NCBI GenBank assembly: GCA_040882285.1
Contig: JBBEBQ010000010.1
Location: 62,001-126,000 of the forward strand
Direction: 5' to 3'
Source: Gemmatimonadaceae bacterium
Lineage (GTDB): Bacteria; Gemmatimonadota; Gemmatimonadetes; Gemmatimonadales; Gemmatimonadaceae
DNA: 64,000 nt
Shown: positions 5,317 to 63,588 of the stretch, one piece after another
Position numbering within the stretch: the stretch's first letter is position 1
Layout of the letters: the number at the start of each line of letters is the position of its first letter
Translations under genes and position numbers: made by a program
Notes under the pieces: model-generated
The model's input: only the letters and a program-made list of their open reading frames with translations
Database searches by the model: none
What the model was told of the DNA's origin: nothing

Positions 5317-6270
5317 ATGACGAACGCCACGACCCGTCCCGACGCCGATGGCAATTACGACGTCGCCATCGTCGGCGGCGGACCCGCCGGGCTCAGCGCG
5401 GCGGTCTGGCTGGCGCGGTTTGAGCGATCAGTCGTAGTCGTCGACTCCGGTGATCCGAGAAACTGGGAGACGCGCGGAATCAACGGGTTCCTGGGCCTGC
5501 CGAAGATCAAGCCGCCGACTCTGCGCGCATCCGGGCGGGACGAATGCCGCAGATACGGTGTGCAGCTCATCGACCAGGAAGTCTGCATCGTCAAGCGGAA
5601 CGGCGACGGGATATTCGCGCTCGAGCTGTCCGATGGCCGCGCGCTCTCGAGCAGGCGTCTGCTGCTGGCGATCGGAATCAAGGACGTTTGGCCGGAGATT
5701 CCGGGGTTGGCGGCCTGCTACGGCGAGAGCATCCACGTCTGTCCCGACTGCGACGGCTACGAAGCCAAGGGGAAAAAGACGGTCGTCATCGGGACCGGCA
5801 ACCGCGCTGTCGGCATGGCTTTCGCCCTCGCCAACTGGACCGACGAGATCATCATCTGCACCAACTGCGAGGCGCAGGACCTGAGCGAGGATATGCTGGC
5901 GCAGCTGCAGAAGCTGAACATCCCCGTGCTATGCGAGCGGGTGCGGAGCGTGTCCTCGATGGACAGCAACGTCAGCTGCATCCGGCTCGAGGGCGGCATG
6001 CAGCTGGACTGCGAGCGGATCTTCTTCTCGCTCGGGCAGCATCCCGCGGACGATCTCGGCAAGCAGCTCAGGTGCGAGCGCGACGAAGCGGGACTGATCG
6101 TGGTAGACAAGGCGCAGCAGACTTCGGTGGAGCACGTGTATGCCGCCGGCGACATCACGCCCGGGCCGCAGCTCGCGATCTCAGCCGCCGCCGAGGGCTC
6201 GGTGGCGGCGATCGCGATTCACAAGTCGTTGTTGCCGGAGGAGCTGAGGATGCCGGAGAATGGTGATTAG
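5317..6270 (+). CDS. Thioredoxin-reductase-like NAD(P)/FAD oxidoreductase
   Basis: A 317-residue two-dinucleotide-domain flavoprotein. The FAD motif GGGPAG is at residues 20-25, the redox pair CPDC at 142-145 (HVCPDCDGYEAKG), a second nucleotide-binding motif follows at VVIGTGNRA, and the FAD-closing motif VYAAGDIT is near the C-terminus. It is thioredoxin-reductase-sized, but no thioredoxin gene is adjacent, so the acceptor could be a thioredoxin elsewhere or a related disulfide. A Shine-Dalgarno-like AGGGAG precedes the ATG. Its stop codon lies inside the first unit of the heptamer array at 6263-6290. Confidence 0.9.
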   Translation: MTNATTRPDADGNYDVAIVGGGPAGLSAAVWLARFERSVVVVDSGDPRNWETRGINGFLGLPKIKPPTLRASGRDECRRYGVQLIDQEVCIVKRNGDGIFALELSDGRALSSRRLLLAIGIKDVWPEIPGLAACYGESIHVCPDCDGYEAKGKKTVVIGTGNRAVGMAFALANWTDEIIICTNCEAQDLSEDMLAQLQKLNIPVLCERVRSVSSMDSNVSCIRLEGGMQLDCERIFFSLGQHPADDLGKQLRCERDEAGLIVVDKAQQTSVEHVYAAGDITPGPQLAISAAAEGSVAAIAIHKSLLPEELRMPENGD

Positions 6271-6348
6271 TGATTAGTGATTAGTGACTGCAACTGCCGG
6301 TTTTTCCGTGACTTTCCGCAGTTAACCAATCACTAATCACCAATCACC
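6263..6348. repeat. Inverted heptamer array at a convergent gene junction
   Basis: Four units of GTGATTA/GTGACTG (6263-6290) face an inverted set of AATCACT/AATCACC units (6327-6348) across a short loop. The stop codons of both flanking genes (6268-6270 and 6344-6346) lie inside the repeats. The transcript from either strand could fold into a long hairpin, so a role as a bidirectional terminator is possible. There is no clear U-tract after the right arm. Confidence 0.85.
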
Positions 6349-7297
6349 AACGCAAAGTCACGCGCTGTCCCTTCCCCTTCCGCACGACATCCAGCTGCAG
6401 CGTCTTCGCGGGGCCGGCTTGCATCATCGCCATGTACAGCCCTCTCGGATCGACGATCTCCGCGGTCGCGGCGCGCACCACCACATCGCCCGCGCGGAGG
6501 CCGGATCGCTCGGCCGCAGTCGCGGCGGGAACGTTTACGATCAGAACGCCTTTCCGAACGCCGAGCACGTCACCGAGCCCGGCATTCACCGGCACCATCT
6601 CCGCGCCGGTGAGCAGCAGGGCCCCTGACGGCGTGCTAAACGCGATCAATGGCGCGACGGACGGATTCATCACGACCTCGCGCTCGAGAGCGCGCACCGT
6701 TTGCCGGGCGAGATTCTCGGCGAAAATTCTCGTCTGCGGAGGGAGCTGCTCGCTGGCTTGCCGCAGCGCCTCCGCGGCAAGCTCCATCTCCGCGATGGGC
6801 GCTCTCGGCGCTGCCCGCACGGTCACCGTCGCGCCCGGCGGTAGCGGCCTCCGCAGGCTGAAGCCGAACGCTCCCGCCGGTCGCTCTCCGACCGTGACGC
6901 GCACTGTGCGGGTCCCGCCTCTCCTGAGACGAATCGACAGCCGCTCGCCCGGCCGCAGCAGGCTCGCCATCGGCACTCCGCGCCGAACGAAATCGTAACC
7001 GTTGAACGCGATCAGCGTATCGCCCACCTGAAGCCCCGAACGCTCCGCGGGCGAGCCGGGCTCGATCGCCTCGATCACCGGATACGAGTTGTAGGAGATC
7101 CGTAGCCCCTCGCCGGTCTGGTCGATCTTGGCTTCAGCGGAGTAGTGGATGCCGAGCCAGCCGGCCGGCTTGGACAGGACTGCTGAGCGGGTCCCTCCCG
7201 TCGCCTGCGCACCGGCGAGCGCGGGAATCGCGGCGCCCGCGAGAGCGCCAAGGACAAACAGTGAAGCGACGCCGAAGCGTCCGTGCGGCTTGATCAT
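6344..7297 (-). CDS. Exported two-PDZ-domain protein
   Basis: A 317-residue protein with an N-terminal signal or anchor (to about residue 32, ending GAQA) and two PDZ domains. The first lies around residues 60-125 (VIEAIEPGSPAERSGLQVGDTL) and the second around 225-310 (AAERSGLRAGDVVVRA). No protease domain is seen, so it is not a DegP/HtrA enzyme. Its ATG overlaps the anti-sigma stop by one base (TGATG), placing it third in a sigma - anti-sigma - PDZ operon. An envelope-stress sensing or substrate-presenting role is a reasonable inference by analogy with RseP/DegS PDZ modules, but it is not shown by the sequence. Confidence 0.85.
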   Translation of the reverse strand: MIKPHGRFGVASLFVLGALAGAAIPALAGAQATGGTRSAVLSKPAGWLGIHYSAEAKIDQTGEGLRISYNSYPVIEAIEPGSPAERSGLQVGDTLIAFNGYDFVRRGVPMASLLRPGERLSIRLRRGGTRTVRVTVGERPAGAFGFSLRRPLPPGATVTVRAAPRAPIAEMELAAEALRQASEQLPPQTRIFAENLARQTVRALEREVVMNPSVAPLIAFSTPSGALLLTGAEMVPVNAGLGDVLGVRKGVLIVNVPAATAAERSGLRAGDVVVRAATAEIVDPRGLYMAMMQAGPAKTLQLDVVRKGKGQRVTLRW

Positions 7298-18104: not shown

Positions 18105-18109
18105 GAGCG

Positions 18110-18135
18110 GTGACTAGTGACTAGTCACTGGTCAC
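18110..18135. repeat. Near-perfect heptamer palindrome at a convergent junction
   Basis: A 26-base palindrome built from GTGACTA units (two on the left, two inverted on the right) with one mismatched pair. It fills almost the whole gap between the convergent genes ending at 18104 and 18139, and matches the arrays at 6263, 26281, 35196 and 61797. Confidence 0.85.
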
Positions 18136-18138
18136 TTC

Positions 18139-26236: not shown

Positions 26237-26280
26237 GCCTATATTCTACGCCGAGCGCGCACTTCAGGTTGTTCGCTCTT

Positions 26281-28554: not shown

Positions 28555-28622
28555 CCCGTGCGAATCGACTGAGAGCGCAAGGGCCCGGGCACCGTCCTCG
28601 GCGTGTTCCGGAACCAGGTTGA

Positions 28623-28713
28623 GCGGCGTGAGGTGAGGGGTTCTCACAGGCCGCGTCTTAGCGCGCGCAGTTTGCGCGCGTAGCGGCCGACGAGGATCCC
28701 TCACCTCACGCCG
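28623..28713. repeat. Long palindrome with conserved core (copy 3), between convergent genes
   Basis: The first 17 bases of the left arm (28623-28639) are a perfect inverted match to the right arm, and the arms continue to 28647 and 28692. An inner stem GGCCGC/GCGGCC encloses GTCTTAG, a CGCGCGCA-GTT-TGCGCGCG hairpin and CGTAG. The right arm includes the stop codon of the bacilliredoxin gene. Confidence 0.88.
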
Positions 28714-49919: not shown

Positions 49920-49943
49920 CGCCACCTCCCGGGCGCCAGCCAG

Positions 49944-52033: not shown

Positions 52034-52080
52034 CCCCATAGCCGCGACCGCGTGATGTTGCAGCGACTTCAGCCGCCGTC

Positions 52081-52108
52081 GCCAATAGCCAATAGCCAAC
52101 AGCCAATA
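52081..52108. repeat. GCCAATA heptamer array in front of prfC
   Basis: Four tandem units (GCCAATA, GCCAATA, GCCAACA, GCCAATA), the inverse of the TTGGCTA units at 22736-22756. Depending on the start codon used, it lies in the 5' leader of prfC or codes for PIANSQQPIAS at its N-terminus. Confidence 0.87.
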
Positions 52109-60108: not shown

Positions 60109-61788
60109 CTAAGCGCGCACCAGCTTCCGGTACGCGACGCGGTGCGGCTGATCCGCATCCACGCCCTTCCGCCGCTTGAAATCCTCGCGGTACGCCTGGT
60201 AGTTCCCCTCGAACCACACGGCCTCGCTGTTACCCTCGAATGCGAGAATGTGCGTCGCGATCCTGTCGAGAAACCAGCGGTCGTGCGAGATCACCACGGC
60301 GCAGCCGGCGAAGTCCACCAGCGCGTCCTCGAGCGCGCGCAGCGTATCCACGTCCAGATCGTTGGTCGGCTCGTCCAACAGCAGCAGGTTGCCACCGCTC
60401 TTCAGCAGCTTCGCCAGGTGCAGCCGGTTGCGCTCCCCGCCGGACAGCTTCTCGACTTTTTTCTGCTGGTCCGTCCCGCGGAAGCCGAACGACGCCAGAT
60501 AGGCGCGGGCGTTGATCTCCCGCTTGCCGACGACGATGATGTCGTTGCCGTCGCTCACTTCGTCGTACACTGTTTTCTTCGCGCCGAGCTCGCGCGACTG
60601 ATCGACGTACGCAGTGACGACCGTTTCGCCGATGGTGAGCGATCCGCCGTCGGGCTTCTCCTGCCCGACGATGATGCGGAACAGCGTCGTCTTGCCGGCG
60701 CCGTTCGGGCCGATCACGCCGACGATGCCGCCCCGCGGCAGCGAGAACGTCAGCCCGTCGAACAGCAGCTTGTCCCCGTACGCCTTTCTCAGATCGTCCG
60801 CGATCACGACGTCGTTGCCGAGCCGCGGCGGAGGCGGGATCACGATCTCGTGCTGGTACAGCTTCTCCCCCTGCGACTCCTTCTCCAGCTCCTCGTACTT
60901 CTGCACGCGCGCCTTGTTCTTGGCCTGGCGCGCGCGCGGCGCCATCCGCACCCACTCCAGCTCGCGCTCCAACGTTCGCTGCCGCGCCGACGCCTGCTTC
61001 TCTTCGGTCGCGAGACGCGTGCGCTTCTGGTCCAGCCAGCTGGTGTAGTTCCCCTCGTACGGAATGCCGGCTCCACGGTCGAGCTCCAGGATCCACTTCG
61101 CGACGTTGTCCAGGAAATACCGGTCGTGCGTCACCGCGACGATCGTACCGGGAAACTCGGCGAGATGCCGCTCGAGCCACGCGACGGATTCCGCGTCCAG
61201 GTGATTCGTCGGCTCGTCCAGCAGCAGTAAGTCGGGCTGCTCCAGCAGCACGCGGCACAGGGCCACGCGCCGCTTCTCGCCGCCCGACAGCTGCTTCACG
61301 TCCGCGTCGGCGGGTGGAAGTCGCAGCGCGTCCATCGCGATCTCGATCTTCCGGTCCATCTCCCACGCGCCCTTCGCCTCGATCGCGTCTTGCACGCGCG
61401 ACTGCTCGTCCAGCAGCTTCTGCATCTGGTCGTCGTCCATCGGCTCGGCAAAGCGCGCTGAGATCTCCTCGAACCGCTTGAGCAGGTCGCGCACTTCCGC
61501 GACTCCGTCCTCTACGTTCTCCTTCACGTTCTTCGATTCGTCGAGCCGCGGCTCCTGAGAGAGGAACCCGACGCGCATGCCGTCGGCGATCCACGCCTCG
61601 CCCTGATAATCGTGGTCCTCGCCCGCCATGATCCGCAGCAGCGACGACTTGCCCGCGCCGTTGGCGCCGAGCACGCCGATCTTCGCGCCGTGATAGAACG
61701 AGAGCCAGATCCCGCGCAGGATCTCCCGCGACGGCGGGACGACCTTGCGCAGGTCCTTCATGACGTAGATGAATTGTGGAGGAGCCAT
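60109..61788 (-). CDS. ettA: Energy-dependent translational throttle protein EttA
   Basis: A 559-residue ABC-F protein with two ABC domains: Walker [10 protein letters not shown] and GPNGAGKTT, signatures [12 protein letters not shown] and [12 protein letters not shown], Walker [13 protein letters not shown] and [12 protein letters not shown]. It has the linker and charged arm of the EttA group (length and [18 protein letters not shown] start match). In E. coli EttA binds the ribosomal E site and gates elongation in response to the ADP/ATP ratio. It stands as a single gene. Confidence 0.95.
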
Positions 61789-61796
61789 GGAACTGA

Positions 61797-61831
61797 AGTT
61801 ACTGGTGACTAGTGACTAGTGACTAGTAACT
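61797..61831. repeat. AGTGACT heptamer array upstream of ettA
   Basis: Five tandem units (AGTTACT, GGTGACT, AGTGACT, AGTGACT, AGTAACT) beginning nine bases before the ettA start codon on the minus strand. It directly abuts a YdeI-like gene fragment. Confidence 0.87.
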
Positions 61832-61832
61832 G

Positions 61833-61968
61833 CAACAAGCGCTGTGCTACGGCTGGATCGACAGCCTGATGAAGCCCGTCGACAAGCAGAGGTACCGGCA
61901 GCTGTTCACGCCGCGCAAGCCGAGGAGCAGGTGGTCGAAGCCGCCGCCGGCGTACGAACCATCCAGGC
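61833..61968 (+). pseudogene. Fragment of a YdeI/OmpD-associated family gene
   Basis: Reading from 61833 gives QQALCYGWIDSLMKPVD, then RYRQLFTPRKPRSRWS, which matches the conserved centre of YdeI-type (bacteriocin-protection) proteins (EALCYGWID ... FTPRKPxSxWS). There is no start before it, the array at 61797-61831 replaces the 5' part, and the frame degrades toward the anti-sigma gene end. It is therefore a gene remnant of about 40 codons. Confidence 0.8.
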
Positions 61969-61970
61969 GT

Positions 61971-63083
61971 TCAGGGCACCCGTTCCAGCTCGCTCAGTCG
62001 CTTCGACAGCGCCTCGAGCTCCGCGACAGTCAGCGGGCCTGAGAGCGTGTAGGTCATTCCGCGCTCCGGGCTGGACCAGCGATAGGAATTGATCACCGTA
62101 GCGGCCATCTGGGCGGCCGCTCTCTGCTGCACTTGTGGCGCGGCGCTCCGCCGCGTGGCCGCCGACTCCTCCGCGAAGCTCGTTCGCAGTAGCTCTTCCG
62201 TGAGCGTGAGAACCGTTCCGTCCTTGGTGCGGTACCGCGATACGTTTGCGCCCAGCATCGGCGCGCTCGTGACGACGACTTCCTCGAACCTCATTGCGGG
62301 CCTCACCGGCGGAGGCGGAGCAGGAGGCGCGACCGGGAGTGCGGTAGGCTGCGCCACCGTTGGTGCTGCATCCTTTCTTGCAAGCGCAGCCGCCGGCGCT
62401 GCCGGCGGAGGCTTGGTTGCCATGCCACCGGCGACACCACGCTGCTCGACAAGCCCAGCCCGGGCAGACTCGGGTGGCGGAGCGCTGCGCTCCACCACGC
62501 GCGCGCGTCTTGCGCCGTCGGTTTCCCTTCCCGCGACGACACGCGGTGGCGCGACAGCATCCCGCGCGGCGTTGCCGGTTGTTCCACCGCCCGCTTCCGT
62601 CGACAGATCTGCCGCGGCGGCGGGAGCGCTCGCAGGCATTGCAGCCGTCGGGGATTCCGCTGTTGGCTCTGCAACGATTTCGCTCGCCGTCGCGGCGTCC
62701 GCCATCAATGATTCAGCTTGCGAGCTTCTTCCCCGCGCGAACGTCCCCGTGCGATCGAGCACGACCGCCGTGCCGCCCACGAGCAACAGCAGCGCGGCCG
62801 CGCGCGCATACGGCAGGCGGAAGATCAGTGGCCGCACCACCCGGCGGGCCGGAGCGGATGGCTGCACGATCACCGGCGCCGCGGGCGCTACCGCCGACGA
62901 TGGCGCGGCATCGAGCGTGGTTATCACGCGTGACGCGGCCGCGACGAATCCGCGCGCTTCCGCGAGCGCTGCCGCGCACCGGGCGCATTGCCCGACGTGC
63001 AGCTCGAGCGTCGCGGCCTCACCCGGAGACAGCTCGCCATCTATGTACGCGTGCAGCGTGCCTTCTTCAGGATGCTGCGTCAT
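61971..63083 (-). CDS. Anti-sigma factor with zinc-finger domain and long periplasmic region
   Basis: A 370-residue protein: a zinc-finger anti-sigma domain (HVGQCARC gives HxxxCxxC near residue 29-36), a membrane helix (about 92-112: YARAAALLLLVGGTAVVL), a very long Ala/Pro/Glu-rich spacer (about 125-275), and a C-terminal globular part (MRFEEVVVTSAPMLGANVSRY). ATG at 63083 has a clear GGAGAGAG site, while the longer frame starts inside the sigma gene. It overlaps that gene by 17 bases. It probably controls the neighbouring sigma factor. Confidence 0.88.
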   Translation of the reverse strand: MTQHPEEGTLHAYIDGELSPGEAATLELHVGQCARCAAALAEARGFVAAASRVITTLDAAPSSAVAPAAPVIVQPSAPARRVVRPLIFRLPYARAAALLLLVGGTAVVLDRTGTFARGRSSQAESLMADAATASEIVAEPTAESPTAAMPASAPAAAADLSTEAGGGTTGNAARDAVAPPRVVAGRETDGARRARVVERSAPPPESARAGLVEQRGVAGGMATKPPPAAPAAALARKDAAPTVAQPTALPVAPPAPPPPVRPAMRFEEVVVTSAPMLGANVSRYRTKDGTVLTLTEELLRTSFAEESAATRRSAAPQVQQRAAAQMAATVINSYRWSSPERGMTYTLSGPLTVAELEALSKRLSELERVP

Positions 63084-63588
63084 TTCTCTCTCCTTTTCCT
63101 TCGATCTCTTCATATGCTTCCACGAGTCGCCGCCGCGCGCGCGCCAGCGTGGTTCCCACCGAGCCGGGCGAGAGATCGAGCGCTTCCGCGATCTCCGGGT
63201 AGCTCAGCCCTTCCTCTTTCATCAGCAGCGCCGACCTGTCCCTGTCACCCAGCGCGCCGAGCGCTCGCCGCGCGGCCGCGCTCTGCCGCAACCGCTCGAC
63301 CGACAGCTCGGCCTCCGCATCCGTATCCTCCGAGCTCACCCGTGTCTCCGCGGCGAGCAGCGTCAGATGCTTCCGCTCCCGCTCCTGCCGCCGGGCCGCG
63401 TCCCGCAGAAGATTCGTGGCCACCGCGAACAGCCACGCGCGCTCGTTCGTGATCTCGTCCTGCCGCATCGCCCGCACGAACGTCTCCTGCGCCACCTCCT
63501 CCGCGAGGTCGCTGTCGCCCAGCCGGCGGGTCAGGTAGCGCACGAGCTGCGCGTTGTACGTTCGAAACAGGCGATCTACGTCAGTCAT
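63067..63588 (-). CDS. ECF-type RNA polymerase sigma factor
   Basis: A 173-residue sigma factor: region 2 includes SDLAEEVAQETFVRAMR, region 4 has YPEIAEALDLSPGSVGTTLARARRRLVEAY. It lies three bases after the end of the partly seen gene at the right edge and just before its anti-sigma gene, so it appears to be part of the same transcription unit. Confidence 0.93.
   Translation of the reverse strand: MTDVDRLFRTYNAQLVRYLTRRLGDSDLAEEVAQETFVRAMRQDEITNERAWLFAVATNLLRDAARRQERERKHLTLLAAETRVSSEDTDAEAELSVERLRQSAAARRALGALGDRDRSALLMKEEGLSYPEIAEALDLSPGSVGTTLARARRRLVEAYEEIEGKGERNDAAS

Follow-up and report, generated by a model that had tools for sequence, protein, structure and literature searches.

Dispersed extragenic palindromes of the REP/BIME type are reportedly targets of insertion sequences, ISPpu9 being one example. 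Intergenic heptamers with the units GGGAATC and GGGGA(C/T)T occur in Xanthomonas and Nostoc, often as inverted pairs and with a fixed end towards the nearest gene, as described in part of PMC4692102, while the TAACTGA direct repeats of Beggiatoaceae are described, in part of PMC4679880, as mostly facing start codons. For Gemmatimonadota, a literature search on heptamer tandem repeats returned just one paper, which concerns reading-frame transitions. Here we analyse a locus at which an array of such heptamers adjoins the remains of a YdeI/OmpD-associated gene. The window, i.e., the whole stretch of 64,000 nucleotides that was analysed, lies on contig C10 of a 2.89-Mb draft genome (G000) and was compared above all with the relatives G001, G002, and G003; the genus sample consists of four genomes, all of them drafts.

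A ydeI gene decayed in place next to ettA

The array lies 8 nt from the start codon of ettA, and the remnant is flanked on its other side by an anti-sigma-factor-like gene. The features of the locus are as follows.

60109 to 61788, minus strand: ettA, an ABC-F translational throttle (NCBIfam TIGR03719, E 1.7e-281, and open reading frame)
61797 to 61831, plus strand: heptamer array AGTTACT GGTGACT AGTGACT AGTGACT AGTAACT (sequence and alignments; edges identical in G001 and G003)
61832 to 61838, plus strand: ancestral spacer GCAACAA, retained between the array and the lost ydeI start (alignment with G001; GCAACAG in G003)
61839 to 61941, plus strand: ydeI remnant corresponding to codons 60 to 94 of the intact G001 gene, with a 180-bp deletion at its left edge
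61942 to 61966, plus strand: final 25 nt of the ydeI remnant, joined through a 283-bp frameshifting deletion; the stop codon TAG has become CAG
61971 to 63113, minus strand: anti-sigma-factor-like gene flanking the remnant (open reading frame; weak anti-sigma profile matches; neighbouring gene in G001 88 to 90% identical)

Searched alone, the fragment matched no family among the Pfam profiles, no relevant family in NCBIfam, and nothing noteworthy among solved structures, and it carries no OmdA domain (PF13376) above the curated cut-off. This silence is explained by the deletion of the Pfam OmdA domain, which in the intact G001 protein (195 aa) occupies residues 134 to 190 (E 3.3e-20, 72.3 bits against a cut-off of 25.6), and the naming of the fragment therefore depends on intact relatives. 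Its best protein match is an open frame of 199 in G001, from the same genus (E 1e-19, 84% over 38 residues), and homologues were found in 20 of 40 relatives by a protein search of whole genomes. The conserved N-terminal block (ALCYGWIDS...RYRQLFTPR...WSK) is recognizable in the fragment, with 30 of 33 residues identical to those of G001; at the nucleotide level, 97 of the 102 positions compared in the retained stretch are identical, so that five nucleotides and three of 33 residues differ. The OmdA domain of the G001 protein places the fragment in the YdeI/OmpD-associated family, and judged by sequence similarity it is a real remnant of that family, beyond chance. The sequence-only reading, which saw the centre of a YdeI-family gene with neither start nor end, was right about the family and about the missing start and usable end; it overlooked that the 3′ end is partly kept, as the 25 out-of-frame nucleotides at 61942 to 61966.

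That reading had proposed looking for a complete ydeI-like gene at this place in relatives. Such a gene is present in G001, where an intact ydeI of 195 codons (L010:1330-1917) stands directly between ettA, 96% identical to that of the window over the part compared, and the anti-sigma gene, and it shows that the gene decayed in place. Among 25 loci with ydeI homologues, the G001 locus alone has the true ettA within 1.5 kb on either side; a weak ABC-F paralogue occurs at one further locus. A global alignment of the window with G001 is colinear except for two gaps, whose sizes are measured against this single intact witness and not against the true ancestor: the first (L010:1327-1506, 180 bp) takes away the ydeI start codon and the first 59 codons, and the second (L010:1610-1892, 283 bp) shifts the frame. 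Only 128 of the 588 bases of the gene are left in the window. Compared with the intact orthologue that G001 has at this locus, start, frame, and stop have thus all been lost.

We conclude that the segment is very probably a pseudogene of an OmdA gene, destroyed in place by two short deletions and the loss of its stop codon while the array was already resident. The common ancestor of G000, G001, and G003 would have had a ydeI/OmdA gene in the gap that separates ettA from the anti-sigma gene. In the lineage of the window, presumably under relaxed selection, one illegitimate deletion would have removed the start and the first 59 codons and another most of the C-terminal half, shifting the frame, and the stop codon would have been lost as well.

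Two other explanations of the fragment itself are hardly credible. It might have arrived by transfer as a partial copy, with no decay in place, and the genome does hold only a fragment; both flanks and both gene parts are nevertheless colinear with G001, including the final 25 nt of ydeI that adjoin the anti-sigma gene, and a search of G000 with the fragment gave exactly one match, the fragment itself, and so revealed no donor or second copy, nor did this genome give any OmdA match at all. Equally improbable is a functional short gene in the frame of 70 open codons at 61830 to 62042, as its first residues are spacer, its first ATG comes only at 61869, beyond a frameshift at 61941/61942 it continues across the end of the anti-sigma gene on the opposite strand, and it matches no family.

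The array is older than the loss of ydeI

In G001 an array occupies the identical place and reads GAAGTTACT, three AGTTACT units, and AGTAACTGCAACAA, against GAAGTTACT, GGTGACT, AGTGACT, AGTGACT, and AGTAACTGCAACAA in the window; there are five units in each, the edges are equal, and the central base differs. The first ydeI ATG of G001 follows 10 nt past the array. G003 retains the array, followed by the 5′ end of ydeI (approximately the first 15 to 17 codons) and then by a different, large deletion that extends up to the end of the anti-sigma gene; the two sides of this array lie on separate contigs, as the array is interrupted by an insertion-sequence-like element. G002 has neither the array nor ydeI at the locus, only ACTAGTAGC near the ettA start. 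Since the array edges, AGTTACT...AGTAACTGCAACA, are common to three species (G000, G001, and G003), the array predates the loss of ydeI, and the combination of an intact gene with the array in G001 and a different deletion beside it in G003 means that ydeI was lost at least twice independently next to a pre-existing array. The array is an independent occupant of the gap between ettA and ydeI, was already next to ettA, and has copies that probably turn over by slippage; such turnover would account for the AGTTACT units in G001 and the AGTGACT units in G000 between the same edges.

From the sequence alone, the 5′ boundary of the fragment had appeared to be the exact end of the array, a hint that the formation or arrival of the array came with the deletion. 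The comparison corrects the first point and gives no support to the second. The array ends with AGTAACT at 61831, and the seven bases that follow are ancestral intergenic DNA; because they intervene between the array and the left breakpoint, 7 nt away, the array is not the breakpoint. The arrangement that had been named beforehand as a refutation, a relative whose intact frame has an ATG and extends as far as the array, is the one found in G001.

The array might still have caused the loss, if its formation, its expansion, or a hairpin had stalled replication and so deleted the adjoining ydeI start. The 180-bp deletion begins close enough to the array for a structural role in the first deletion, and ydeI has been lost in two of the three species that have the array. 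Yet G001 keeps an intact gene beside it, the deletion in G003 lies further in and leaves the adjacent 5′ end intact, and no array-like sequence was seen at the far breakpoint in the alignment of the window with G001. We therefore consider a causal role of the array improbable and retain decay in place beside a resident array. With the G001 comparison, the fragment loses its supposed value as a clue to how arrays arise, and the decay itself, being ordinary, matters little.

Heptamer arrays and their units across the genus

The genome of the window contains many intergenic arrays of 7-base units. The three-unit AGTGACT pattern has 93 overlapping matches in G000, both strands counted, against one in a reversed control, and three units with any central base (AGTNACT) occur 120 times per strand in G000, 31 times in G001, 11 times in G003, and not at all in G002. 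Within the window, six arrays of period 7 were found at the stricter score, while periods of 4 to 6 and 8 to 12 gave zero to two; reading the window backwards for period-7 runs is an uninformative control, periodicity being symmetric, and was not used. A scan of 84,980 species genomes with a four-unit AGTGACT pattern found 72 stretches in many phyla, five of them from Gemmatimonadota by title, and the unit as such is therefore not special to this group. Contigs C3, C5, C11, and C21 of G000 begin or end inside AGTGACT arrays; the arrays thus break the assembly and are probably under-counted.

Other repeats were also seen. The whole genome of G002 has nine matches per strand to TCANTGA triples (the reversed control), apparently a palindromic heptamer of its own. 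A long hairpin at 28627 to 28712 of the window (fold of 28560 to 28710: z −4.7) is part of a dispersed repeat with dozens of matches of ~37 to 86 bp in G001, G002, and G003.

Both inverted pairs and a fixed strand relative to the nearest open reading frame are found in G000. Array blocks tend to begin with GGTGACT and to finish with AGTAACTGC (76 blocks, position-wise information), and 13 of 53 array sites hold an inverted pair, most pairs filling an intergene of 82 to 169 bp; seven of the 53 sites, at contig or stretch edges, were left unclassified. Counting only blocks flanked by a called gene on each side, it is the GGTGACT (outer) end that lies closer to a gene in 28 of 34 single (p 0.0002) and in 25 of 27 paired blocks. 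The corresponding figures for single arrays are 4 of 7 in G001 and 5 of 7 in G003, too few blocks for significance. Gene starts and gene stops are adjoined about equally by the arrays of G000. Genes around the arrays were called with a crude codon-usage script, which missed the anti-sigma gene beside the focal array, so that this site was labelled co-directional. The hairpin energies of about five of 17 folded sites pass the limit set by the most stable 5% of random 120-nt windows; in a genome this rich in GC, hairpin energy alone does not distinguish the inverted pairs.

The insertion-sequence-like element of G003 is known here from its ends alone, its interior being unassembled. In G003 there are four copies of the end sequence CAGTACTGTCCGG (L267, L268, L269, and L270, on G003 contigs C82, C131, C197, and C290); two of them are left ends and two are right ends, and their inner sequence is identical. 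Both left flanks end with GGTGACT and both right flanks begin with ACTGGTGACT. If the flanks are paired accordingly, as synteny supports at the ettA locus and as is assumed at the other, both recognized copies would sit in AGTGACT arrays and share both register and orientation, with a 3-bp duplication of ACT.

Approximately 43 kb of the window was compared with G001, G003, and G002. The syntenic DNA of these relatives contains 12 period-7 arrays, 11 of which lie at one of the six array sites of the window; these 11 are inherited and thus not independent. The exception is a G001 array at window position 49940, where the window has none. At several sites the unit itself has changed. Between the same convergent genes, site 6255-6350 has AGTGATT in G000, AGCTAGC in G001, and GTGACTG in G003, and site 18105-18138 (18110), where the array fills the gap between convergent genes from stop to stop, has AGTGACT in G000 and G001, TTGGCTA in G003, and AGCCAAC in G002 (loci of the relatives for these two sites: L256, L255, L257, L167, L168, and L171). 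Site 35192 has AGTGACT in G000 and G003, AGTGATT in G001, and no array in G002. The array at 26279 is found in G000 and G001, and the gap is ~46 bp shorter in G003 and G002. A GCCAATA array at 52079 to 52106 is common to G000 and G001, while in G003 and G002 the gap is not readable across. The ~30-bp core of this GCCAATA array is found again at numerous positions in both G001 and G003.

Read off the sequences, many units at shared sites differ by one or two substitutions, so that stepwise change together with homogenization would be a sufficient, though not a proven, account of the unit changes. In the inverted pair at L161 both arms have one variant unit in common, at matching positions, and this would be compatible with copying from arm to arm. 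Tentatively, and as a serious possibility rather than the expected answer, we suggest that in this Gemmatimonadaceae genus an array may be a property of its site: the unit would be rewritten as a block, the arrays would be made and maintained by slippage and arm-copying at gene borders and not by quadruplexes, and the insertion sequence would land there.

Relation to known systems

As a pseudogene the ydeI remnant resembles other bacterial genes lost through short deletions: start, frame, and stop are gone at the orthologous position, and a sister species has an intact copy. Only the adjoining array and the second, independent loss in G003 are unusual.

With REP/BIME elements the arrays share the character of dispersed extragenic palindromes able to be an insertion-sequence target, but their stems are built of tandem heptamers. 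A mobile origin of the MITE/REP type was considered. It would agree with palindromic pairs that have shared inner edges; against it stand the species-specific units at the same site and the lack of matches to Y1_Tnp (PF01797), the REP-associated type of transposase, in the 96.6% complete genome of the window, a profile matched in 5 of 14 controls.

The TAACTGA repeats of Beggiatoaceae, as far as the consulted part of PMC4679880 describes them, are likewise intergenic heptamer direct repeats near start codons, with contigs ending in repeats; here the unit is another one, stop codons are adjoined about equally, and inverted pairs are common.

By analogy, the AGTGACT arrays can be filed with the heptamer repeats that Xanthomonas and Nostoc have between their genes and which, in the portion of PMC4692102 drawn on here, also form genome-wide intergenic arrays and inverted pairs, with one end consistently facing the nearest gene. 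They differ from the repeats so described in that the unit varies between species of one genus at a single site and in that AGTGACT has no G-runs: no two G are neighbours in the unit, and an explanation by quadruplexes is therefore inapplicable. Since the strand rule and the inverted pairing of Xanthomonas are shared all the same, a general process of slippage and arm-copying is proposed in place of quadruplexes, and the occurrence in sister species of orthologous arrays whose units have changed opens to testing, without the quadruplex hypothesis, the long-standing question of how such arrays originate and are maintained.
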